Part shown: positions 18,738 through 44,289 of the stretch, in pieces
How the letters are laid out: every line of letters starts with the position of its first letter
How positions within the stretch are numbered: the stretch's first letter is position 1
DNA from: Paraphysoderma sedebokerense
Taxonomy: Eukaryota > Blastocladiomycota > Physodermatomycetes > Physodermatales > Physodermataceae
DNA length: 44,289 nt
Direction of reading: 5' to 3'
Assembly (NCBI GenBank): GCA_025602915.1
Contig: JAHLJZ010000133.1
Span: 1 to 44,289 of the forward strand
Translations under genes and position numbers: made by a program
Notes under the pieces: generated by a model
What the model saw: only the letters and a program-made list of their open reading frames with translations
Databases searched by the model: none
What the model was told of the DNA's origin: nothing

Positions 18738-21700
18738 TTAAGCGACATTCGATCTGTTGATGTTAGTTACTGATCCAGCTTTGAAGCTTAAGCCTAAAGC
18801 AGATCTCTGTGCAGCAGCAGTGCTACTCACGCCAGAAACCGATTTAGAGCTGACACCTCCACCAGACCTGTGAGCACCAGCCGTACCACTGAAACCGGAC
18901 ACGGACTTCGCATTATCGCTAGAATTACCCATCAGTACCTGGTAGATCTTCACACCAAACAAGAGGAACAGGGTAATGCTGGTAGGTATAAAAATTAAAA
19001 AGTTTTGAAGAATAAATTGAATTCGCGAGGGTTCATTCGGAGCGTACAAAACAGTAAGACCGATTAAAAATGAAAGTAAAATGTTGTAAATTGATAACGC
19101 AACGGCTTTGCTTTCATTATGAGTTTCGTAAACTTGGCGCGTTTTCCTGTATTAAAAGTTTACAAACGGTTGATCCATTGCGATAAAACGAACAGGAATT
19201 AACTGAATCATACCAGGCTAAAATGGCCCCAACCAAGACGAGAAGACCATTGAATACGTAAGTTATGATTGAAAATGCAGCATTCGCATTGTCGGAAACA
19301 CATTCAATAACAAAGCTCTGGTCATTGGAAAGGGCAATTTTCCTTGGTTTGGGAGGATCGACTACGACCCAAGTCACACTCAGAACCTGCAAGTAGAAAA
19401 CAAAGAAATGAATCAGTAATTTGCTCACCGGCCAATACCGGAATTGACGTACAATTTCCATGGCAAGAATACTGGAAACAAATATAAGCAGCATTCTCAA
19501 CGGAATAGGGCTAGCATTGACGGTCTTCGCTTCGAAAATCTTGTAAATTCGATAAGATTTTGCCAAGATAGCCGAGTACAACAATCCAAACCCAAGTGTA
19601 CTCAAGAATGGGCGAGTTTTGCAAATAACTTCGTTGGGTATTCCATTGAATACGAAAGCATTTGAAAAACAGATCATAATACCAAATAAAGAAATGTGAC
19701 AGAAAAACGGAGAAATTGCTTTAATGTATCTATGTTCGCGACGGAGATGAATGAAAACACTGCATGCTGCAGTGATTAAGATCATGATAGTCGCGACGAC
19801 CGATGTAGCGGCAAACCCAGGATCTGCCAAGATCGGTTCATTAATGGAGCGCAGGCAGTACTTTCCATTTTTGCTGAGAGCAGAATTATCACCGAGACAT
19901 CCGAGACGAGCTTGCCATAATGCTGGGGCTTGCGGCTGGAAATCAGCAAAACCAGTTGGCAAAACGGCATACTGACGGCTATCTATGATTTGAATAACAG
20001 CGGAGTCTCGACCAATATTTCGCTGGTTTTCATCCTGAACAAACGATAATATTGATTAGTTGATGATTGACCAACGTTTGATGAAGATGGCATGAAAGGA
20101 ACGAACCATTTGAATTTTGCCAAAAAATGTGTTGGCATTGAAATTTCTTAACGCCTGCCTAACATCAGTTCGGTTGACAGAGTTTGCTTTCAAGAGTGCC
20201 AATTGCTGCAACAAACAAATCTGTGTTAAACATCGTTTCTCAACCTTCGCTAATATTACGTTGTACAAACCAACAATACTCCTGCTGCTGTGCCACTGGC
20301 ATGGGTCTACAACAGATTGGGTTAGAGAGTCAGATGTTTTTAAAAGTAAAGCCAAGGCACACTCACATATGTTGGGTGATCGGGATCCGAGACATTGTAA
20401 TTTTCTTGCATCCATTTTCTGAAAGCTACACTGTACCCCTTGGAACCAGGGAATGACGATGATTCAGCTTCAAACCCCATGGTGTGGTGCCATTGAGTCG
20501 GCGACATGATGTATTGTCCAGCAAGAGAGTTGTTGGCGTTCAGATAGCCCGGTTCGGTGGGGGCAACGGTGATGAAGACATGATGCCAGTCATGTTTCAA
20601 AGTTTGGAGAGCACTAAGCGTGATTTAAATACAGGGAGCAGTGTTAATGAGATCCAGAAGCAAAGAGTGTGCCATAAAATTTACACACTTGGTCATCAAA
20701 ATGCCATCTTCGTTCAACCCAAAAGTCATGAGAATTTCGGCACCAGTATCACGACCCGTTTCCAAGAGTTTGACAAGCTGATCGACACTGGATTTGCGAC
20801 CTGGGCCGTAGGTATAGTTTCCGACAACCACCTCGAGATTCAAATTACTTCTGGCAAAATCAACCGCGGCAGCACCGGTAGAGGTCGTGAATGCGGCTTC
20901 ATCTGAAATCAGCATGAATACCTTTTTGTAGCCAAGAGTTTTGATATATCTTAAAAATGGATAGGCTAAGTAGTTGAAGTTTAAGGATAGCGGTTAGCAG
21001 CCTTTTTCCTAACTTTTCTGAACTTAACTGCCATATACTTACAGTAGGTATCAGCGGGCTACAGGATATGGGTACAAAAAATTGTCAGACGATTCAGTGT
21101 ATCCATGTATCACACTCTCGAAAGTAATTTTAGCTTACCAAGTGGATTCCAAAGACGTTTGTATATCTCGGTGTATACACCGTTCGCGGGCCTGTACAAC
21201 ACTGAATTTGAAGAATATTGTTGTCTTGAGCAAATGCAGAAGCATTCAAGGTCTGCGAAACAACGACCGTTTGAGAAGTATGGCCACCCTAAAGAGATAA
21301 AAGGGAATATCGACAGAACCAGGCGATTTTGATAAGGAGATCAATGTCATGGATATTTGTTGAGAAGTAGGACAAAGTAAAGGTGGTGTTACTATGTGCA
21401 TATCATTAACGACAATATCTCAAATCATACTTACAATAACGAAATCGAATGAGTCCGCTTCAATAGCAGTTTTCACTGCTTCGGCAATTAATGTTGCATT
21501 CCCTCTCAGAGAATTCGTGTTCACGTTGGTATGGTTAATTAAGTAAGTGTCACCATTAATTTGCTGCAGAGTTTCATTGGGTTTAACTTTGTCAGCAAAC
21601 TGAAAATTTGAGGGAGCTATGGGACTTTTTTCTCTGAAATACTTACAATACCGTTCATCACATCATTCACATAATGGACCCAGAATTGGACACCTGTCAA

Positions 21701-23166: not shown

Positions 23167-26100
23167 TTAAGATTGACCGGATCTGTTGATATTTGTAGCA
23201 GAACCCATTTTTAAACTCACAGCCGCAATGGAGCGTTGTCCGCCAACACCGTTTACGCCAGAATTTTCAAAGCCTGACTTGTGAGTACCCCGAGACCCGC
23301 TGAACCCAGTAACAGGCTTCGAGTTAGCTACAGGGCTTCCAATCAGAACCTGGGCAATTCTGATACCAAATAGCAGAACGAGAGTAATTGTGGTGGGGAT
23401 GAAAATTAAGAAATTTTGGATAATGAATTGAATACGAGATGGCTCAGATGGAGCATAGATCACAGTGAGACCAATCAAGAAGGAAAGAAGGATGTTGTAA
23501 ATGGATAAGGCCACTGATTTGCTCTCATTATGGGTTGAGTAGACTTCGCGGGTTTTCCTGTTGACATTATTTGGTTAGAAAATAGACGTACAAAGCCTAA
23601 AGCAATTTGACAGTGAGCTTACCAAGCTAGAATTGCACCGATCAATACCAAAAGACCGTTAAAAACATAAGTTATAATTGAAAACGCAGCATTGGATTTT
23701 GCAGAGACACATTCAACAATGAAATTTTGATCATTGGACAAGACGATTTTCGTTGGTTTGGGTTGATCAACTATTACCCAGATCGCACTTATGAGCTGCA
23801 AATAGAGTAGATGCGAAAGCAGAAAGATGTCAACATACGAAAACAAGAATTATTAATTCGTCCCGAACGTGAGCGAAGTAGTCAAAAGATCCTTACAATT
23901 TCAGCACCGACAATGGTAGTGACGAACGCTAGGAGCATTTTGATTGGAATAGGACTTGCATTAACAGTCTTCGCTTCAAAGATCTTGTAAATCCGGAATG
24001 ATTTGGCCAAAATTGCAGAATACAAAAGTCCGAATCCAATTGTACCCACGAAGGGACGAGCGATGCAAATCTTTTCGTCTGGTATCCCGCTGAATAGAAA
24101 AGCATTCGAGAAACACACGATAATGCCAAATAGTGAAATGTGGCAAAAGAATGGAGAGATCGCCTTGATGTATTGGTGGTTGCGACGGAGGTGAATGAAA
24201 ACACTGCACGCGATGGTTAGTAAGATCATGAGAATTGCAACAACAGAGGTTGCGACAAATCCGGGATCAGAAGAAATAGGTTCGTTGATAGAACGTAAGC
24301 AATATTTTTCATTTCTGCTCAAAGCGGAATTATCACCGACACATCCGAGACGGGCTTGCCACAATGCTGGCAACTGCGGTTGGAAATCGGCAAAACCAGT
24401 GGGCAGAACGGCATATTGACGGCTCTCAATGATTTGAAGAACAGCCGAATCTCGACCAATATTTCGTTGGTTTCGATCCTGTGAGCAAGAGATTAGAAAT
24501 GAGACAGAGAGGACGATTCGAATCTCAAACACACCATTTGCATTTTTCCGAAAAATGTGTTAGCATTAAAATTTCTCAGAGCTTGCCTAACTTCAGTACG
24601 ATTGACTGTATTCGCTTTTAAAATTGCCAGTTGCTGTATATGTATTTGGTGTCAATTATCGGCTGCAGCATACGTACGACAAAAAAAAACTTTTACGAAC
24701 CAACAAGACTCCCGCAGCAGTGCCACTGGCATGAGTCTTTGAGAAAAATTCTATTAGCAATTAAAGAATGTGAAATGGAATATTAGCATACTCACATAGG
24801 TTGGGTTGTCCGGATCGGAACTGTTGTAAGTAGTTGTCATCCATTTTCTAAACTCTTCAGTGTATCCCTTCGAACCAGGGAAGGAAGAAGATTCAGATTC
24901 GAAACCCATCGTATAATGCCATTGAGTTGGGGACATGACATATTGGCCAGCAAGAGAATTGTTAGCATTTAGATAACCCGGTTCGGTTGGGGCCACTGTA
25001 ATGAAGACATGACGCCAGTCATGTTTGAGATTTTGAAGAGCACTACAGATGAAAAGAAGCGAAGAATATTGTCAATCATGGGGCCAGTGGAGGAGTGATT
25101 ATGGCGACGTACTTTGTCATCAAGATGCCATCCTCATTTAAGCCGAAAGTCAATAAGACTTCAGCACCAGTGTCACGACCTTCTTCCAGTAGACGGACAA
25201 GTTGCTGGACAGTCGATTTCCTACCAGGACCATACGTGTAATTTTTGGCTATGACCTCAAGATTCAAATTGCTCCTAGCAAATTCAACAGCGGCAGCTCC
25301 GGTGGTGATTGTGAAAGCAGCTTCATCGGAAATGAGCATGAAGACCTTTGTATGCCCAAGAGTCTTGATGTATCTCAAAAATGGATAAGCTAAGTGCACA
25401 AATCGAGTCCACAATCAGCTTTACGATTTTTATTGAAGGATTTTGCGTTTTACTTACAGTAGATGTCAGCAGGCTAAAGAAAAATCACATTTGCTTTAGC
25501 ATTTTCCAGTCAATCGACTGTAGAACCTAGGAAATATACGCACCAAATGAACTCCGAAGACATTTGTGTATCCTGGAGCGTAAACCGAACGGGGGCCGGT
25601 ACAACATTGAATTTGGAGGATATTGTTCACTTGAGCGAATGTTGAATCATTTAACGCTCTCGAAACAGCAACAGTTTGTGAAGTGTGGCCACCCTAATCA
25701 GTTGGCAAATTGTTTAGTTTCAGTGCAGACGAATCAATAAATGTTTGGACCAAAGATACAAAAATCCTTACAATGACGAAATCGAATGTGTCAGCTTCAA
25801 CTGCATTTTTCACTGCCTCTGACACCAATGTTGCGTTTCCTCTCAATGCATTTGTGTTTACATTGATGTGATCGATGAGATATATTTCACCATTGACTTC
25901 CTGAGAATTTAGAATAAAAAAGTTGAAAATTTCTGTTAGTGTTTGAAATGTACTGACAGCCGACCATAACTGTCATAGTATGATTGTGAAGACACGTACA
26001 AGGCCCTTCAATACATTGTTAACGTAGTGTACCCAAAATTGGACACCTATCAATTAGAATTGCATGAGGCATGCGTAATAATTAAATCAAATGGATTAGT

Positions 26101-31789: not shown

Positions 31790-32635
31790 ATGCCCATTAC
31801 TCCTCCCATCGTCAATTTGGCCTTATCCCTCCACTCTCTTACAGAGTCCATCCAACTAGGGCATAACTTATTCGTCCCCGAAATTCCATCGAATACGAAA
31901 TGTCGCCTCGCAATTATTATCGGCTGCACGATAATCCGTTACGTTGCCAAAACTACCCTTTGGTTTGATTTCTTCATGAATGCGAATGATATCACTTATG
32001 CAGTGTGCCTTCAATTCAGCTCAATTTTTGCCAATATCGCTTGGGCCTACGTAACTTATGATTATTACCTTCGCATTAAGGCATTATGCGGTTTACAAGG
32101 ATTAAAAAATTACCTCTACATCGCCTTTTTGCTTGTTTGGTCCCTTCAATACTCTGTTTATGTCCATGCCTTCTCTATGACTAGAAGCATTTACCCCGCT
32201 GCCGCCGATTATGCTAAATCCATTGCCTCAAATCCCTTTCTTACGCCCCTTCAAATCGTCTTAACAACCTACTCACTCATCGCGTACGTCGGGTTGGAAG
32301 CACTCTCGATTGTTAAATTATACCGCGACAGAGTTTTGGTCTTATCGGATGAAGCAAAAGACGCTTTAAGACCTCGAGTATTTAAACTGGTTACCAACGT
32401 TAGCATAATAACTATTTTATCGTTTGTATCATTTGGTTTGATTCTAGGGGGGAGCAATGTTTTCTCTGCTGTTGTCAGTGATACTATTCCGGTTTACACC
32501 GCTGCGAATGTCATTGATTTCCATGTCGTCGATATTGCTTTGATTAAGTACGGTAATCGTAGTGGGAAATCAGGAAAACCGACCAATGCAATCTTTAGTG
32601 AAAAGTCGACAAACGCATCAGAAGGAACTAAATAA
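31790..32635 (+). CDS. Intronless multipass membrane protein, unrecognised family
   Basis: This is a single uninterrupted frame of 281 codons plus stop from ATG 31790, with AATAAA at 32725-32730, 90 bp after the stop. Hydrophobic segments lie at about residues 39-56, 67-92 (AVCLQFSSIFANIAWAYV), 106-127 (YLYIAFLLVWSLQYSVYVHA), 152-176 (TPLQIVLTTYSLIAYVGLEAL), 200-221 (VSIITILSFVSFGLILGG) and 233-253, so six or seven helices. The N terminus has no classical signal peptide, and the C-terminal 30 residues are polar and Ser/Lys-rich. The layout resembles orphan seven-helix receptors, but no motif confirms this. In contrast to its neighbours it has no intron, which could reflect retro-duplication or simply family structure. 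Confidence 0.75.
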   Translation: MPITPPIVNLALSLHSLTESIQLGHNLFVPEIPSNTKCRLAIIIGCTIIRYVAKTTLWFDFFMNANDITYAVCLQFSSIFANIAWAYVTYDYYLRIKALCGLQGLKNYLYIAFLLVWSLQYSVYVHAFSMTRSIYPAAADYAKSIASNPFLTPLQIVLTTYSLIAYVGLEALSIVKLYRDRVLVLSDEAKDALRPRVFKLVTNVSIITILSFVSFGLILGGSNVFSAVVSDTIPVYTAANVIDFHVVDIALIKYGNRSGKSGKPTNAIFSEKSTNASEGTK

Positions 32636-33064: not shown

Positions 33065-36000
33065 TTAGATTCCAGTAAAATACTCATAAATGACGTCATA
33101 CTTGCGAGCGTCGATTCCATCGATACTGTTCAACATACTGATGATTACACTGTTATGAACAAGGTGAGCAATGACAGTCGCGCTATCTAGCACTACCAGC
33201 TTCTCTAAACATTTAGATTTTTCTTCATAATGATGAAGCTGATCAAACCAATTAAAGATTAACCAGCTTAATTCCTCGAAACATAGCGGTTCTTTAATCT
33301 TCAAAATTGCGTCTTTCAAGTAGTTTCGTGCTCTCCCCGTGAATCTATTTCCCAACTTGATAATAGTTTGTTCGAGCAATAGTCTACCTGGTTTCACCGA
33401 CTGAAATAAGGTTGGGGGAGTGAATCTGGTTATGGGGAGCGGTTTCTGGGATCGACTGTGAAAATCAGTTGAAAAAAGATCGAAGAAATAGCGGGGCGGC
33501 ATACTGTTCAAAAACTTGCAACATGAGAACAAAGAATCTATAATACTCAATGTTAAGATTACTAGAAAAGAATCTGGATTAAGAATAATCATACCACACA
33601 ATGGATTTGCGCTGTTCAAGCTTCCAGCAAAATCTAAGATGTTGTTCCACTGGTTTTTTATCATTCGGAAATCAAGTCCAGGAAACGTGCTCATAAATAA
33701 ATGGAAATCCATGCGTTGATTTTGATATCCTTTCACCAGTCTCATTATACAATTGTAGCGTTCTCCATGGTGTCGCATACCACATGTCAATACCACGACT
33801 CGTAAAGAACGGGGGTATCGTAATCTGAATTTTGCTTCTTGAATGAAGTCTTCGGTGTGTATCCAGTCTCTGGCCATGGTGTGTTCTGAATCGACATCCT
33901 TTTCGACAAATAGAGCACCTCCATCATTTCCTTGACGATCGACAATAGAATGTGCCATCAGCAAAATTGTTACTGGCTGATCAGCATTCAAATTTTCACC
34001 AATAACATCCAGATCTTTCAAATGTTCTCTATGATTGACAGCAACGCCAAACACTTTGGTGCGAGATGTGCTGGAAGTAATAGAGTGTTGTTTGATCTCT
34101 TTCGTTAACGAATGCCGTTCCCGCTCCAAGACTGCCCCCATACGACACACAATGATGGAACCGTCCGACACATGAGGAGGCTCATGTAACAAAAGACGAC
34201 GAATGCAAGTTCTTTCGAACACTTCGCATCTTGCTTTTTTCCTAGACGAGCACCCAAATCCGCCACCAATGTAGTCATTTGTAGCCGGTCGAGGCCGAAA
34301 CGAGGGCCCACGCTGTAAGAGATTTTGGATTCTCTTGATTTTAGAAGTCGAATTGGACCTGACTTTGGTTTTTACTGAGGAAGCCAATCTCGTTGCTACT
34401 ACTGGCGGAACATTCTCCCCATTTAGCAACATTCCTAAATTGTTGCGAACGTTCGTCTTGGATGAAATCGTGCAATTATCGCCTTGATACAACAGAGGAT
34501 TTGTCATCGAAAGATTTTCTATGCTTGAAACATGAGGCGAAAGGATCTTCCCGAATGATGAGGCTGCACCTAATTGTGTGGCAGGCTTCCAGTTGTGTAA
34601 TGATGTTGCGACAGAGTTTGGGCCAAGGCAGTGTACCATTGACGCAATGTTGTTGCGAGAGTTTTGCCCTGTCGATGTCAGAGCGGAGGCAGCAACTGAA
34701 CATCAGGTATTAGTCTCGCTTATCGCCGCCACGGAATTAAAATGGAAAGATACAAACATTTGTAAACGACGACTTCTGATAACGGGTCATCGTAGTGAGC
34801 AGCAATTGTTTTCATCTCTTTCAGCCCAGATTCAGAATCATCCCAATATAGCAGAGCATAACCGTCGGTAATTACTGAACTTGAAATGTCAATTTGAATT
34901 TCTGTCCCCCATGTATAATCTGGGATCTGAATGATATCACTCAGAAGCCGTGGCCCACCCCCTTGTGAAAACTGCGGGAAAGCATTACCAGAAACGAATG
35001 CTGCAAAGATCCAATTATACGACTCTCCACCTGCGTTTTCGGTTCTTTCAACGGATATTCTTAATGCACGCCTATCTTTAGTCAGGACAACATCGGATAT
35101 CTTAAACGGATACACACGACTATCAGGTGTAAACATATCGTAGTGCTGAAAGCCGACGAATGAGGTTGTGTTTTCCCAGAGCACATAGAGCGGGTATGAA
35201 TCAAGTTGAGGTACAGGATTAACGTTAAGAGCGAAGAAATCTGGATTCGGATCATAATAACTGGGACGCCTGATGAAGATATCATTATTGAAAGGATCGA
35301 GTTTCGCAAGCACGAATTCAGATGGCATAGGGCGCTCGTTTTGAAAGGTTAAATCAGATGCAATAGCACCCATTAGAGGAAGTATGAAGGGATGTATCAA
35401 GAATGAATGTTCGTACTCTATGCGTTCCGTCAGGTCAATATCGGTGGAATGGTACCGTATATCACGTCGAAGAAACTCCGGATATTCTGGTGGACTGTAA
35501 AACTCTTCCTTACTGATATCAATATTTTCCATCTGTATTTCGGAAAACCCGCATGCAAAGCGTAGTAGCTGCTGCATCACTTCCAACCAATATACGTTGT
35601 CTGCAACTGGCAAAATTTCAACCAATTCTGGTAATTGTCCCCACCGTCTGCATGTGTCGTTATTGATTATTCGTAACAAAGAAGAAGAAATGATTCGAAG
35701 CATGTGATAAACTTTCAATCGGTCTTTTGACTGGAAGTGCAGCAATTTCGACTTAACGGGATTTGACGAAGGCAGCGTTGGGCAGAAAGGAAGGCCTAAC
35801 AGACAAGCGTTCTCATAGGATTCATGGGTTTCATAAACTTGAAAAGTTGCAGGAAATTTGATTGAAGAGCCGACAAATGATTGAAATATATGGATGAAGC
35901 ATCCTCCGCTAGGCGGAAGAGGTGTGAGGTGGAGACCATTTCGCTTTGCATCCGTGTAAATTTCGACGAACTGCATCATTAATTGAAATATCTGATTGAC

Positions 36001-36788
36001 TCTATTTTGAGCGGATTGAAACTGGGTCAGACTACTTTGAGGATGGCACTACATTTTTAGAAACCATTAGATTCTTGCTGGACCATTTAATGCAAACGTT
36101 CACACCTTTTCGCAGCGATACCAATGACCGTAGGCAATTTTTGCGTTAAATTCGCAGAAGATTGAAGTGACAACGAATATGTTTAACTCAGTTTCGTCCA
36201 CCAATCTCTTCATCAAGGCTTTTCCTTCTTTCGTCAAACTATAATGATAGCAGCAAATGACTTTGTCACAGGCCACACATGACATCAGGCCCTCCAACAT
36301 TTCCGATCTCTTTCTAGTCACATTGAGTATGTCGTCTTTGTCCCTGACATTTAAAACGATGCCCACATCAAATGGTGCGATGATATTTTTGTTGTTTGCG
36401 CACGCCCGACAGGACATTCTTATTCTGAGTAACCGCTGAACCTGACATTGCAATTGGAGAAGGAAGTCAGTTTATGACAGACCCCTTTAATTATTTTCAT
36501 ATTTGGATAGAGGTTGGTATCGTCTCGGCGAATGCACAAGCAAATATTGAAAGTTGTAGCGAACCCGACAATCCTGCCTCATACTGATGACAGAGATGAA
36601 GAGTCTAGCGTAATTCTTATATCCGAGGACAGATAGTAAACAGTCTTACCTGAATAGAACGGTAACTCACTGATGGATATTATCTTTGCAGTTTTACTGT
36701 TGCGGTCACTCAAAATTTGTCGGGCAAAAAACTCCAAGACGAGGGCCGCTGATATCACATGTAGAGGAATCCTGCAACGAAATGCCAT
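33065..36788 (-). CDS. Large protein with CxxC pairs and a CHAT/caspase-like His-Cys region
   Basis: Four exons, complement(33065..34695, 34758..36048, 36106..36441, 36585..36788), give 3462 nt, 1153 aa. Introns are 62, 57 and 143 bp with GT-AG ends in consistent phase. The N terminus is hydrophobic at residues 8-22 (PLHVISAALVLEFF). Residues 75-185 carry three CxxC pairs, C79/C82 (CRAC), C123/C126 (CVAC) and C178/C181 (CEKC, formed across an exon junction), suggesting zinc binding. A long middle region (about 190-610) has beta-rich stretches such as SYPLYVLWENTTSFVGFQHY and WGTEIQIDISSSVITDGYAL. The C-terminal part has TILLMAHSIVDRQGNDGG with His859 and SLRVVVLTCGMRHHG with Cys915, 56 residues apart. 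This strand-His...strand-Cys arrangement resembles CHAT/caspase-like cysteine peptidases. The overall protein is unrecognised; peptidase activity is a hypothesis. The first exon is the least certain. Confidence 0.7.
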
Positions 36789-38117: not shown

Positions 38118-38253
38118 GATGCCGACCATGTACTTTTGCGCAGAATCAAAAAGTGATTGATAACGATCCTTTATATATCTTGCGCATTGTCCCTAGACGG
38201 AGGATCGTTATCAATCACTTTTTGATTCTGCGCAAAAGTACATTGTCGGCATC
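38118..38253. repeat. Near-perfect inverted repeat, 53-bp arms, 30-bp loop
   Basis: The left arm 38118-38170 and right arm 38201-38253 are reverse complements with one mismatch (at 38127), separated by 30 bp (38171-38200). The core aggatcgttatcaatcactt is perfectly conserved. The transcript of either strand would fold into a long hairpin. Both arms read the same open peptide outward (DRYQSLFDSAQKY) before diverging, so this may be an inverted copy of part of an exon. Confidence 0.9.
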
Positions 38254-39314: not shown

Positions 39315-39971
39315 TTAATCGTGTTCGCCAACTATCAGTCTCTGTCCATTTTCGCGGAATCCGAATTCTATAACATCAAAGTGGTTAAATTTGTGTTCAC
39401 ACATGATACTTAAGCTGCCTGATTCTACCCTCGCCTGGAATTTTCGTCCCTGTATCAGTATGTACTTCAAGTAGGTGCCCAAACTATGTCATTCCCAATT
39501 TTGATTGGCAACACTGACTTTAAAATACATCAATTACCGCCAATACTCACGGAAGGAATGATAAAACGCCACTTACTTTTGCAGCGGAGGTGATGGCTGA
39601 GGAAACAAATGTCGAACCTTGGCCCAGAAAAAAACGACCCATATCCAAAACGTTAGTTTCCTTTACCATGGCTAAGGGTTTTACCGAGACGATGAAAATA
39701 CGGAGAATACAGAATGAATTAGGAATACCCAGAAGTAACAACATACCCTCAAAGATCCCGCCAAACAGTCCGCCTCTTGCTGTCCAAGTAACCGAACGCC
39801 CCACACATCCGATGTCGAGTCGTTCCTGTATCTATGGATAACATGAAACAAATTTGAAACAGGTGTTATAACATAAAAGTAGCGAATCTTGATAATTCAA
39901 TAAGAAATACAATATTAGGAATTGGTTACCTTAAGTTTCGCTTCAGTAGACTGATACAGTGAAGCAAGAAT
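39315..39971 (-). CDS. 3' part of a multi-exon gene of unknown function, single-copy end retained
   Basis: Four exons, complement(39315..39449, 39577..39671, 39747..39831, 39930..39971), join in consistent phase to 118 codons plus stop. Readable stretches are ILASLYQSTEAKLK, ERLDIGCVGRSVTWTARGG, LFGGIFEAMVKETNVLDMGR, FFLGQGSTFVSSAITSAAK and a polar C terminus with SIMCEHKFNHFDVIEFGF ending GEHD. The Gly-rich RGGLFGGIFEA and GQGSTFVSSAI stretches could be membrane helices of Tim17-like character, but this is weak. The 5' part cannot be resolved: 40140-40200 is open but meets a stop before the next donor. The stretch from 39594 upward is repeated at 41942; only this copy keeps the last two exons intact. 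Confidence 0.5.
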
Positions 39972-40247
39972 CTGGAAGTTTTGATTTAGCCGTCATTGGT
40001 GTCGTTCTAGAGGTTACTCTATCATCATGATAACTGGTTAGTTTCGAAGGCCTTATCTTTTGTGTGTTGTGTGACTGTTACCTTTATGACAGCCTGAGTG
40101 TGGAGTACGTCCCGGATGTTGTTTGTTTTAGTGGTAGTGAAATTTCAGCAATCGTAGTTGACGAACCTCGGTTCAAGAGTTGAACTGTAGTTTCTGCTTC
40201 TTCCTATTGTTCTGAAGCTTTTCCACGGATTCAGTATAGGCAAGTCT

Positions 40248-40579
40248 TTATGTATCTGGAAGAAGACCGACTTTGTTTACACTGATAAATACAATCGCCA
40301 AGTGTTGGAATGGATCATGAGCAGCAAGACGACCCTCGAATGCATGAAAATGCACAAATTGTCTTTCGAGGTTGGAAAATATGAGGTGCAGCTGTATCAA
40401 AGAGTTTGGAATACTGTGCTTCAAAAGTTTCCACATTCAAATCATTCTTTTGACTAGCTTTGTACAATTCGGAACGACGGACGTAACTACTATTTTGCGA
40501 GAGTGAGAGATACAGTGTCAGCAAATATAAAAGGCTCAAATGATAGATTGATTACCTCGGATTCAAGTATTTGCGGCAT
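40248..40579 (-). pseudogene. Coding-like minus-strand stretch in three successive frames
   Basis: ATG at 40579 opens 29 codons (MPQILESEVINLSFEPFIFA) to a stop at 40490. A second frame then carries RRSELYKASQKNDLNVETF and EAQYSKLFDTAAPHIF to about 40385, and a third carries NLERQFVHFHAFEGRLAAHD to TAA at 40248. Each piece has protein-like composition and ends close to where the next begins, but no GT-AG introns join them. It may be a decayed gene or a real gene with uncorrected indels. The same arrangement recurs in copy 2 at 42596-42927. Confidence 0.3.
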
Positions 40580-41188
40580 TGCTTTGTGAGTTGCTTGAAA
40601 TGTTATGTCGAGTGGAAAGAAAATTCAGCTTTAGGATGTGCAGTGTATTCACCGATGCTACATTATGTCTGCAAGCAAAAAAAAAATGCGACGACCGAGA
40701 TTGTCAATGGGATTGTCAAGAGACAATGGATCTTGCACGACGGTAATATGGATTGTGCTGCAAAACAACATCAGAACATTCTTTATTAGTTTAAATGGAC
40801 GGATACAGCTACAGAAACACTTTATTGACATGGTTCCTCGACTGCAAACTTAACGGCATTCCAGATATATGCCGGCATTTGCCTCATACCAGGGTCGAGA
40901 GGGTTGTTTTTGCGGACGGAGCCTCAGGAAGAGGTATGTTCTCGCACTCAAAACATTACTGAGTATATCATCTACCTATATAAAGACATTCATGATGGTG
41001 AATTCCTCTTTAGGCAATGTTTGCATGCAAAACGCATTCCCATGTTCCGACGCAGGGACCGCACGAAATGGTTCCTCGCTCCTTCTGCGACATTCCCTCC
41101 TCCCGTCTCCTCCGACATCTCATCGTCATCATATATTCTCTACATCTACGGATCCGTCCAACATGTATTATTCACCTAGCGGAGAAAA

Positions 41189-41720
41189 ATGCCTCGCCAA
41201 AAGGATTCCGGTATGCTTTCTTCTCGATCTTGTCTCCTCAGTTCCCACACGCTCATTGATAATGCTGACATTGCTTCGCTTCTTAATCAAACAGAACACC
41301 CCATCCGGAACAAGTTTACTCTTCCCTTCGTTCTGGGGGAGTGAGGCAAAAACTGCGGAAGAAATTACGCAATGGCTGGGTAGCAGCCCCGCCCCGTTTC
41401 GCTTTCGGGGACCAAACGGTATCATGGTATTCCTATCCACCTTGGAATTGGTGGACAGAATTTTCGCCATTAGCGTGGCAAGACTAATTCGAGATAGTAA
41501 AGAGAACTATCTCCCAGATGAAGTGGAAATGGCTGGAAATTACGTATTAATGGTTCGTCTCTCTCCCCTACATCTATCTTTCCTTGTGGCTGTGTTTTGC
41601 AACTCAAGTTTAGTCAACTCGTCGTGTATTGACTCTCTCCCGAATCGCTCTGCTAGAACCAACCGACACCATTCGGTCTTTCGACAACTCCGAACCAACC
41701 CGATGTTGGGTCATCAGTAG
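41189..41720 (+). pseudogene. Coding-like plus-strand stretch broken between frames
   Basis: ATG at 41189 opens 51 codons (MPRQKDSGMLSSRSCLLSSH then IASLLNQTEHPIRNKFTLPF, VLGE, TGA at 41342). An adjacent frame carries AKTAEEITQWLGSSPAPFRF, LSTLELVDRIFAISVARLIR and LPDEVEMAGNYVLM to about 41551, followed by a possible intron (gttcgt...tttag) to STRRVLTLSRIALLEPTDTI. The long 283-codon frame 40869-41720 includes the middle part but not the start. Function is unrecognised. The break near 41340 lies in a GGGGG run and could be a sequencing indel. The stretch recurs in copy 2 at 43537-44068. Confidence 0.3.
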
Positions 41721-41941
41721 CACCTTGGAACCCTTTTATGTCTTTAACTGGTTCTTCAACTGCTCTTGCAACTGCTTCTCCAACCGCCGCTCCAGAATCA
41801 GAATCTGCCGTCAATACCACTTCCACTCAGCATTCTTCTGGGGCAAGAGCATCCAGGATCAGAAACAAAAAAACTCGGAAAGCAGGTGTTGTCGCACGGC
41901 AAACCCGCTCCACAGGTCTGCTCACCCAAGGCCCAGTCACT

Positions 41942-42319
41942 TGGCTGAGGAAACAAATGTCGAACCTTGGCCCAGAAAAAAACGACCCATATCCAAAACG
42001 TTAGTTTCCTTTACCATGGCTAAGGGTTTTACCGAGACGATGAAAATACGGAGAATACAGAATGAATTAGGAATACCCAGAAGTAACAACATACCCTCAA
42101 AGATCCCGCCAAACAGTCCGCCTCTTGCTGTCCAAGTAACCGAACGCCCCACACATCCGATGTCGAGTCGTTCCTGTATCTATGGATAACATGAAACAAA
42201 TTTGAAACAGGTGTTATAACATAAAAGTAGCGAATCTTGATAATTCAATAAGAAATACAATATTAGGAATTGGTTACCTTAAGTTTCGCTTCAGTAGACT
42301 GATACAGTGAAGCAAGAAT
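41942..42319 (-). pseudogene. Truncated second copy of the minus-strand gene (39315-39971)
   Basis: Exons corresponding to 39930..39971 and 39747..39831 are present at 42278..42319 and 42095..42179. The next exon starts at 42019 but is cut at the repeat junction (41942) after GQGSTFVSS, where the frame runs into an immediate stop in copy 1 sequence (SSAK, stop). The final exon is missing, so this copy cannot encode the normal C terminus. Confidence 0.6.
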
Positions 42320-44289
42320 CTGGAAGTTTTGATTTAGCCGTCATTGGTGTCGTTCTAGAGGTTACTCTATCATCATGATAACTGGTTAGTTTCGAAGGCC
42401 TTATCTTTTGTGTGTTGTGTGACTGTTACCTTTATGACAGCCTGAGTGTGGAGTACGTCCCGGATGTTGTTTGTTTTAGTGGTAGTGAAATTTCAGCAAT
42501 CGTAGTTGACGAACCTCGGTTCAAGAGTTGAACTGTAGTTTCTGCTTCTTCCTATTGTTCTGAAGCTTTTCCACGGATTCAGTATAGGCAAGTCTTTATG
42601 TATCTGGAAGAAGACCGACTTTGTTTACACTGATAAATACAATCGCCAAGTGTTGGAATGGATCATGAGCAGCAAGACGACCCTCGAATGCATGAAAATG
42701 CACAAATTGTCTTTCGAGGTTGGAAAATATGAGGTGCAGCTGTATCAAAGAGTTTGGAATACTGTGCTTCAAAAGTTTCCACATTCAAATCATTCTTTTG
42801 ACTAGCTTTGTACAATTCGGAACGACGGACGTAACTACTATTTTGCGAGAGTGAGAGATACAGTGTCAGCAAATATAAAAGGCTCAAATGATAGATTGAT
42901 TACCTCGGATTCAAGTATTTGCGGCATTGCTTTGTGAGTTGCTTGAAATGTTATGTCGAGTGGAAAGAAAATTCAGCTTTAGGATGTGCAGTGTATTCAC
43001 CGATGCTACATTATGTCTGCAAGCAAAAAAAAAATGCGACGACCGAGATTGTCAATGGGATTGTCAAGAGACAATGGATCTTGCACGACGGTAATATGGA
43101 TTGTGCTGCAAAACAACATCAGAACATTCTTTATTAGTTTAAATGGACGGATACAGCTACAGAAACACTTTATTGACATGGTTCCTCGACTGCAAACTTA
43201 ACGGCATTCCAGATATATGCCGGCATTTGCCTCATACCAGGGTCGAGAGGGTTGTTTTTGCGGACGGAGCCTCAGGAAGAGGTATGTTCTCGCACTCAAA
43301 ACATTACTGAGTATATCATCTACCTATATAAAGACATTCATGATGGTGAATTCCTCTTTAGGCAATGTTTGCATGCAAAACGCATTCCCATGTTCCGACG
43401 CAGGGACCGCACGAAATGGTTCCTCGCTCCTTCTGCGACATTCCCTCCTCCCGTCTCCTCCGACATCTCATCGTCATCATATATTCTCTACATCTACGGA
43501 TCCGTCCAACATGTATTATTCACCTAGCGGAGAAAAATGCCTCGCCAAAAGGATTCCGGTATGCTTTCTTCTCGATCTTGTCTCCTCAGTTCCCACACGC
43601 TCATTGATAATGCTGACATTGCTTCGCTTCTTAATCAAACAGAACACCCCATCCGGAACAAGTTTACTCTTCCCTTCGTTCTGGGGGAGTGAGGCAAAAA
43701 CTGCGGAAGAAATTACGCAATGGCTGGGTAGCAGCCCCGCCCCGTTTCGCTTTCGGGGACCAAACGGTATCATGGTATTCCTATCCACCTTGGAATTGGT
43801 GGACAGAATTTTCGCCATTAGCGTGGCAAGACTAATTCGAGATAGTAAAGAGAACTATCTCCCAGATGAAGTGGAAATGGCTGGAAATTACGTATTAATG
43901 GTTCGTCTCTCTCCCCTACATCTATCTTTCCTTGTGGCTGTGTTTTGCAACTCAAGTTTAGTCAACTCGTCGTGTATTGACTCTCTCCCGAATCGCTCTG
44001 CTAGAACCAACCGACACCATTCGGTCTTTCGACAACTCCGAACCAACCCGATGTTGGGTCATCAGTAGCACCTTGGAACCCTTTTATGTCTTTAACTGGT
44101 TCTTCAACTGCTCTTGCAACTGCTTCTCCAACCGCCGCTCCAGAATCAGAATCTGCCGTCAATACCACTTCCACTCAGCATTCTTCTGGGGCAAGAGCAT
44201 CCAGGATCAGAAACAAAAAAACTCGGAAAGCAGGTGTTGTCGCACGGCAAACCCGCTCCACAGGTCTGCTCACCCAAGGCCCAGTCACT
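41942..44289. repeat. Tandem repeat unit, copy 2 (2348 bp), ends at window edge
   Basis: This is a second head-to-tail copy of 39594-41941, identical wherever compared; its last base is the last base of the window. It abuts copy 1 directly with no spacer. Whether more copies follow cannot be seen. Confidence 0.95.

Follow-up and report, generated by a model that had tools for sequence, protein, structure and literature searches.

The minus strand at positions 33065 to 36788 of the window, by which we mean the whole 44,289-nucleotide stretch of DNA analysed here, probably carries a five-exon orphan gene that is restricted to the lineage of Paraphysoderma sedebokerense and encodes a protein of 1134 aa; we put the probability of this reading at roughly 0.6. 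P. sedebokerense is a blastocladiomycete fungus, described in PMC11797010 as a pathogen of the alga Haematococcus. From the N to the C terminus, its regions would be a metal-binding module with three CxxC pairs, a beta-rich middle, a linker and, at residues about 776-1000, an alpha/beta domain. The protein would most likely be intracellular and fast-evolving, with a zinc-binding role for the cysteine pairs and a role in binding or processing a ligand for the alpha/beta domain. The open frames, two introns matching a deposited protein, the motifs and the finding of no relatives at the sensitivity used were all observed; the make-up of the protein from these regions is inferred.

The alternative that survives best, although we consider it doubtful, is that residues about 776-1000 belong with the clan-CD cysteine peptidases (caspase/CHAT/paracaspase-like), either as a highly diverged member or as a dead relative, with His859 and Cys915 as its dyad and the N-terminal module as a sensor or scaffold.

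Gene model of the orphan and its surroundings

Three open reading frames were found on the minus strand, of 419 aa (35979-34720), 524 aa (34639-33065) and, upstream, 117 aa. Frames of 419 and 524 aa exceed the lengths expected by chance from stop-codon statistics. An earlier note on this DNA had described a spliced frame of 1153 aa, which was recovered exactly as an open frame on joining the minus-strand segments 36788-36585, 36441-36106, 36048-34758 and 34695-33065, together with His859 in TILLMAHS, Cys915 in VVVLTCG and three CxxC pairs. While the splicing, motifs and residue numbers of that model stood, it had missed one intron (33594-33538). The only deposited counterpart found, P0001 (a hypothetical protein of 650 aa from P. 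sedebokerense), corresponds to residues 485-1134 of the model presented here, and since it omits the 19 residues that 33594-33538 would encode, this segment was taken as an intron, the removal of which brings the protein to 1134 aa and the gene to five exons. Both this intron and that at 34757-34696 are consistent with P0001. His859 and Cys915 lie upstream of the 33594-33538 intron and their numbering is thus unchanged. The features are as follows.

36585..36788, minus strand: exon 1, residues 1-68, outside P0001; open frame, with donor GTATGA at 36584, phase 0
36442..36584, minus strand: proposed intron 1, 143 nt; GTATGA...CTGAC...CAG, frame kept
36106..36441, minus strand: exon 2, with C79/C82 (36411-36400), C123/C126 (36279-36268) and C178; matches no Pfam family
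36049..36105, minus strand: intron 2, 57 nt; GTGTGA...CTAAT...TAG, phase kept
34758..36048, minus strand: exon 3, with C181 and the long middle region; contains the start of P0001 (residue 485) and the 419-aa ORF
34696..34757, minus strand: intron 3, 62 nt; GTTTGT...CTAAT...CAG, matching P0001
33595..34695, minus strand: exon 4, linker and putative alpha/beta domain; His859 codon at 33952-33950, Cys915 codon at 33784-33782
33538..33594, minus strand: intron 4, 57 nt; GTATGA...TTAAC...TAG; absent from P0001, 19 residues in the earlier translation
33065..33537, minus strand: exon 5, some 157 C-terminal residues and the stop codon; a model of very low confidence shows mainly helix here

The CxxC pairs fall at residues 79-82, 123-126 and 178-181, the last of them spanning an intron. 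Residues 1-484, with all three pairs, were in no deposited protein that we found; the CxxC part of the gene is unannotated because P0001 spans residues 485-1134 only. The proposed structure of this half is drawn from open frames and splice consensus and is to be taken as provisional. Codon usage gave near-zero scores throughout for the N-terminal exons, a test without power here, with exon 1 (other donor) and exon 2 slightly negative. No mention of the gene-name prefix BKA69DRAFT was found in the literature searched.

It is unlikely, in our judgement, that the region instead holds two genes, i.e. an upstream CxxC gene followed by a separate 650-aa gene as deposited, a division which would be compatible with any reading of the alpha/beta domain. 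The start of P0001 at residue 485 speaks for such a division, as does the fact that the searches found the N-terminal half in no other deposited sequence, whereas the exon at 36048-34758 stays open for 430 codons straight across the supposed start.

Among the other open reading frames of the window that were scanned, Pfam recognised malate synthase, choline kinase and a class C receptor. Between the last of these (7tm_3; 19117-19962, minus strand) and the ORF at 23882-24532 (minus strand), 134 of 162 aligned positions are shared, indicating a local receptor duplication. Convergent with the orphan is a 281-aa ORF (31790-32635, plus strand), multi-spanning by eye from its hydrophobic stretches, for which no meaningful Pfam family was found. 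A perfect 43-bp inverted repeat (38128-38170 and 38201-38243) with a 30-bp loop lies where no gene was recognised. The segments 39594-41941 and 41942-44289 form a perfect 2348-bp tandem duplication ending exactly at the contig end. When 1.5 kb of it was used to search the genome, these two copies were the only matches. The duplication may have arisen in assembly, or a tandem array may begin here.

Search for relatives

Protein searches were made with a 1058-aa version of the sequence (start at 36417), residues 1-76 of the 1134-aa model being scanned against Pfam only. Against a collection of 5.8 billion proteins this version returned only P0001, i.e. itself, at E<=1 among the 7997 candidates listed. 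At E<=10 both its first 534 residues (5432 candidates) and the His/Cys region (201 candidates scored) again returned P0001 only. As the search requires shared five-residue words, it would overlook very distant relatives. In the P. sedebokerense genome neither long exon proved to have a second copy, one of them giving three other matches, all at E>0.4, and no close relative of the orphan was confirmed in viral contigs.

The earlier note had looked to a profile search for a CHAT or C14 hit, and neither Pfam nor NCBIfam gave one. The Pfam scans, run up to E 10, E 5 and E 0.1, returned no match to either family, with HMMER filters dropping most weak matches, and NCBIfam returned nothing of relevance, its S17 match (E 0.061) being irrelevant. 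Residues 1-610 gave nothing in a Pfam scan. The three CxxC pairs, which had earlier been read as a zinc module, are present as described, but match no Pfam zinc-finger family at E<=10. Weak matches to undescribed models were obtained from PADLOC, with one (PDC-M37A, E 0.027), and from PHROGs, with three (E 0.07-0.32). No PDB sequence relevant to the orphan was found; phmmer matches there to circularly permuted glucanases (E 0.4) were set aside as unrelated.

The only recurring Pfam match was to DUF6581 (PF20222; E 0.011-0.051). It was under the 27-bit cut-off each time and confined to about 42 residues, and was taken as chance, also because the over-cut-off member of this family in the genome sits in a gene on contig C1 which resembles, by eye, a TFIIIC subunit. 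That gene (L013, G000:C1:914000-921500) looks like the TFIIIC large subunit, and it hints that DUF6581 may belong to this subunit.

Evidence for and against a clan-CD peptidase

According to PMC12881547, gene pairs that act in fungal cell death include CHAT proteases, and a TPR-bearing fungal CHAT protease is known to activate a gasdermin. No CHAT profile match was obtained in the P. sedebokerense genome at E<=0.1. The only Peptidase_C14 locus at that threshold is the genome's own ordinary metacaspase (L014, G000:C12:241500-245500), which has introns, and whose hand-spliced catalytic part matched metacaspase-1 (4f6o) with an E value of 1.5e-88 in a PDB comparison. Searched against the genome, the orphan's 524-aa ORF gave no match to this metacaspase at E<=10, and a metacaspase query returned no match from a collection of genome contigs.

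The earlier note had read the spacing between His859 and Cys915 as a sign of a peptidase, and this did not withstand comparison with chance. With a pair defined as H and C each following at least four hydrophobics in five and lying 40-65 residues apart, 427 of 2000 shuffles preserving the composition of the orphan contained at least one comparable pair. The same was true of 9 among 126 further open frames, each at least 300 codons long, from the window and the fetched loci, CHAT and C14 genes included, and three of the nine have His-Gly. The pair alone is therefore weak evidence. The local contexts can also be compared. In all clan-CD families a glycine is conserved beside the catalytic histidine, according to the section of PMC4357240 on the clan, while His859 is flanked by Ala858 and Ser860 (A-H-S), with no adjoining glycine, and Cys915 stands in L-T-C-G. 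By this criterion the orphan is thus not to be filed under clan CD; it could be a diverged or inactive relative that lacks the glycine.

Compared with CHAT (PF12770), the orphan shares a hydrophobic strand ending in His followed by one ending in Cys, 56 residues apart as against 45 in a CHAT reference (L026). It differs in that L026 has ATHG and LSAC, whereas the orphan has AHS and LTCG in place of His-Gly and Ala/Ser-Cys. Further differences from CHAT are the absence of a profile match, of HG and of Pfam-recognised TPR, WD40 or ANK repeats, and flanks that score at chance. Its likeness to Peptidase C14 (PF00656) would lie in the predicted order of its elements, with His and Cys ending strands 3 and 4, and its short distance from Cys to strand 5 recalls MALT1 by eye. 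In contrast to C14, it has no profile match, A-H-S in place of xHG, and L-T-C-G in place of the QAC of caspases or the DSC of metacaspases.

Sets of CHAT and C14 domains drawn from named plasmids were used for direct comparison, with 27 of 31 CHAT matches (one with a stop, two partial and one without a locus being dropped) and all 25 C14 matches aligned. The hhalign scores were 13.4 against CHAT and 10.0 against C14, below the respective shuffle means of 14.5 and 13.4 (60 shuffles each), which argues against membership of either family. Against caspase-3 the score was 17.1, within a shuffle range with a mean of 13.9 and a maximum of 23.7 (60 shuffles), in an alignment that stops short of His859. 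In the top local alignments with CHAT and with C14, His859 did coincide with the column of the catalytic His, in favour of a clan-CD origin, though a His fell there likewise in 13 and 11 of 150 shuffles, respectively, and the Cys column was uncovered for CHAT and missed by three residues for C14. With both His and Cys pinned, the z-scores against shuffles (100 each) were -0.74 for CHAT, 1.26 for C14 and 2.79 for caspase-3.

The flanks of the anchored pair were also ranked against 300 decoys taken from 100 open frames of at least 300 codons in the window and the fetched loci, many of these frames belonging to CHAT or C14 genes, and pairs with the His as first anchor were excluded. No decoy scored as well as the orphan against caspase-3 (0/300), which speaks for a peptidase, whereas 94, 218 and 172 of the 300 did so against caspase-1, caspase-8 and MALT1, i.e. 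at the level of chance. For true CHAT members (23 of 27 parsed) the median numbers of decoys as good were 9 for caspase-3, 6 for caspase-1, 70 for caspase-8 and 15 for MALT1, and for true C14 members (15 of 25 parsed) 55, 8, 65 and 1, respectively. Among caspase-1, caspase-8 and MALT1, the test is therefore weak in power for caspase-8 only. A stretch after Cys915 resembling the STxPG of caspase-3 by eye was also considered; it held for caspase-3 (0/300) and failed for caspase-1, caspase-8 and MALT1. With His alone pinned, between 29 and 122 of 150 decoys (median 92) were as good over 12 CHAT references, and between 5 and 54 of 150 over 12 C14 references, the orphan being above the decoy median for all 12 of the latter. 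Taken together, these sequence comparisons establish no family, and slightly favour C14 over CHAT.

A 202-residue piece (residues 776-977; 33596..34201, minus strand) was modelled by AlphaFold2 from the single sequence, with a mean pLDDT of 49.8 and a pTM of 0.50, the confidence being low because no homologues are available. For the whole 650-aa P0001 the mean pLDDT was 34.7, and secondary structure alone was usable. In the predicted model of the piece the elements run b1-a1-b2-a2-b3(His)-a3-b4(Cys)-a4-b5-a5. Strand 3 ends at His859 and strand 4 at Cys915, and a loosely structured stretch is predicted between b3 and a3, where caspases have a small sheet. The caspase/haemoglobinase core is described in PMC4357240, in its account of the fold, as strands 2-1-3-4 with helices 1-3, where His ends strand 3 and Cys ends strand 4. 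The sequential order and the places of the two residues, at the strand ends of the active site, would fit this core as far as a model with a pLDDT of 49.8 can be read, and speak for a peptidase. Foldseek searches of the PDB gave caspase-1 or -4 in 14 of the 50 best matches listed and MALT1 in one, with an rmsd of 7.3-9.1 A in the caspase rows; caspases thus recurred, non-significantly, and no match was counted at E<=0.001. In the viral library a metacaspase-like protein of Yasminevirus ranked second (E 2.6e-3). The first rank there was held by A0A0A7KTA0, the baculovirus protein Asb018 of Agrotis segetum nucleopolyhedrovirus B (E 1.0e-3, probability 0.99, rmsd 12.6).

A more specific form of the peptidase reading, and a rather unlikely one, is that Blastocladiomycota possess a separate, fast-evolving branch of caspase-fold cysteine peptidases, with a dyad His in an A-H-S context and with a new zinc module of cysteine pairs, followed by a beta-rich middle, fused in front of the peptidase. 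Such a branch would differ from the CHAT receptors of other fungi and from the organism's own metacaspase.

Weighing of the readings and significance

The least probable reading, which we consider very improbable, is that of a degenerate alpha/beta-hydrolase (PF00561), in which VTILLMAHS would supply the strand and elbow of the nucleophile, with RYPRSLRVVVLTCG as the following strand. It draws on a resemblance, seen by eye, to the pattern of that family, with a strand ending in AHS and the next strand after RYP, and on a pre-elbow stretch that scored well for two of nine references (17/300 decoys as good for L081 and 6/300 for L090). Against this, P0001 has no GxSxG, no Pfam match to an alpha/beta-hydrolase was obtained at E<=10, about 30 residues after the putative elbow are free of helix in the predicted model, and the whole scores ranked from 11 to 238 of 300 decoys over the nine references. 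The test used a loose anchor pattern, with 10 of 13 fetched loci tried and nine anchored, of which at least two (L083 and L091) were probably misplaced.

The evidence weighed for the reading as a lineage-restricted orphan is the alternating strand and helix pattern of the predicted model, the finding of no protein other than itself in the searches, the lack of a Pfam match over cut-off, and a His/Cys pair at the level found in shuffles. On this evidence, His859 and Cys915 more likely sit at two strand ends by coincidence than form a catalytic dyad. The earlier note had also suggested a use in programmed death or defence switches, to which none of these results pointed. An orphan of this kind, with a cysteine-pair N-terminus and an alpha/beta domain, is the most economical description.

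A useful result is that a His...Cys spacing on its own is weak evidence of a peptidase, as about a fifth of shuffles match it. As the evidence stands, the gene adds one further lineage-restricted protein without a known family. If it did encode a peptidase, it would extend the caspase-type enzymes to a form invisible to the profiles used here, in an early-diverging fungus that infects Haematococcus cultures.
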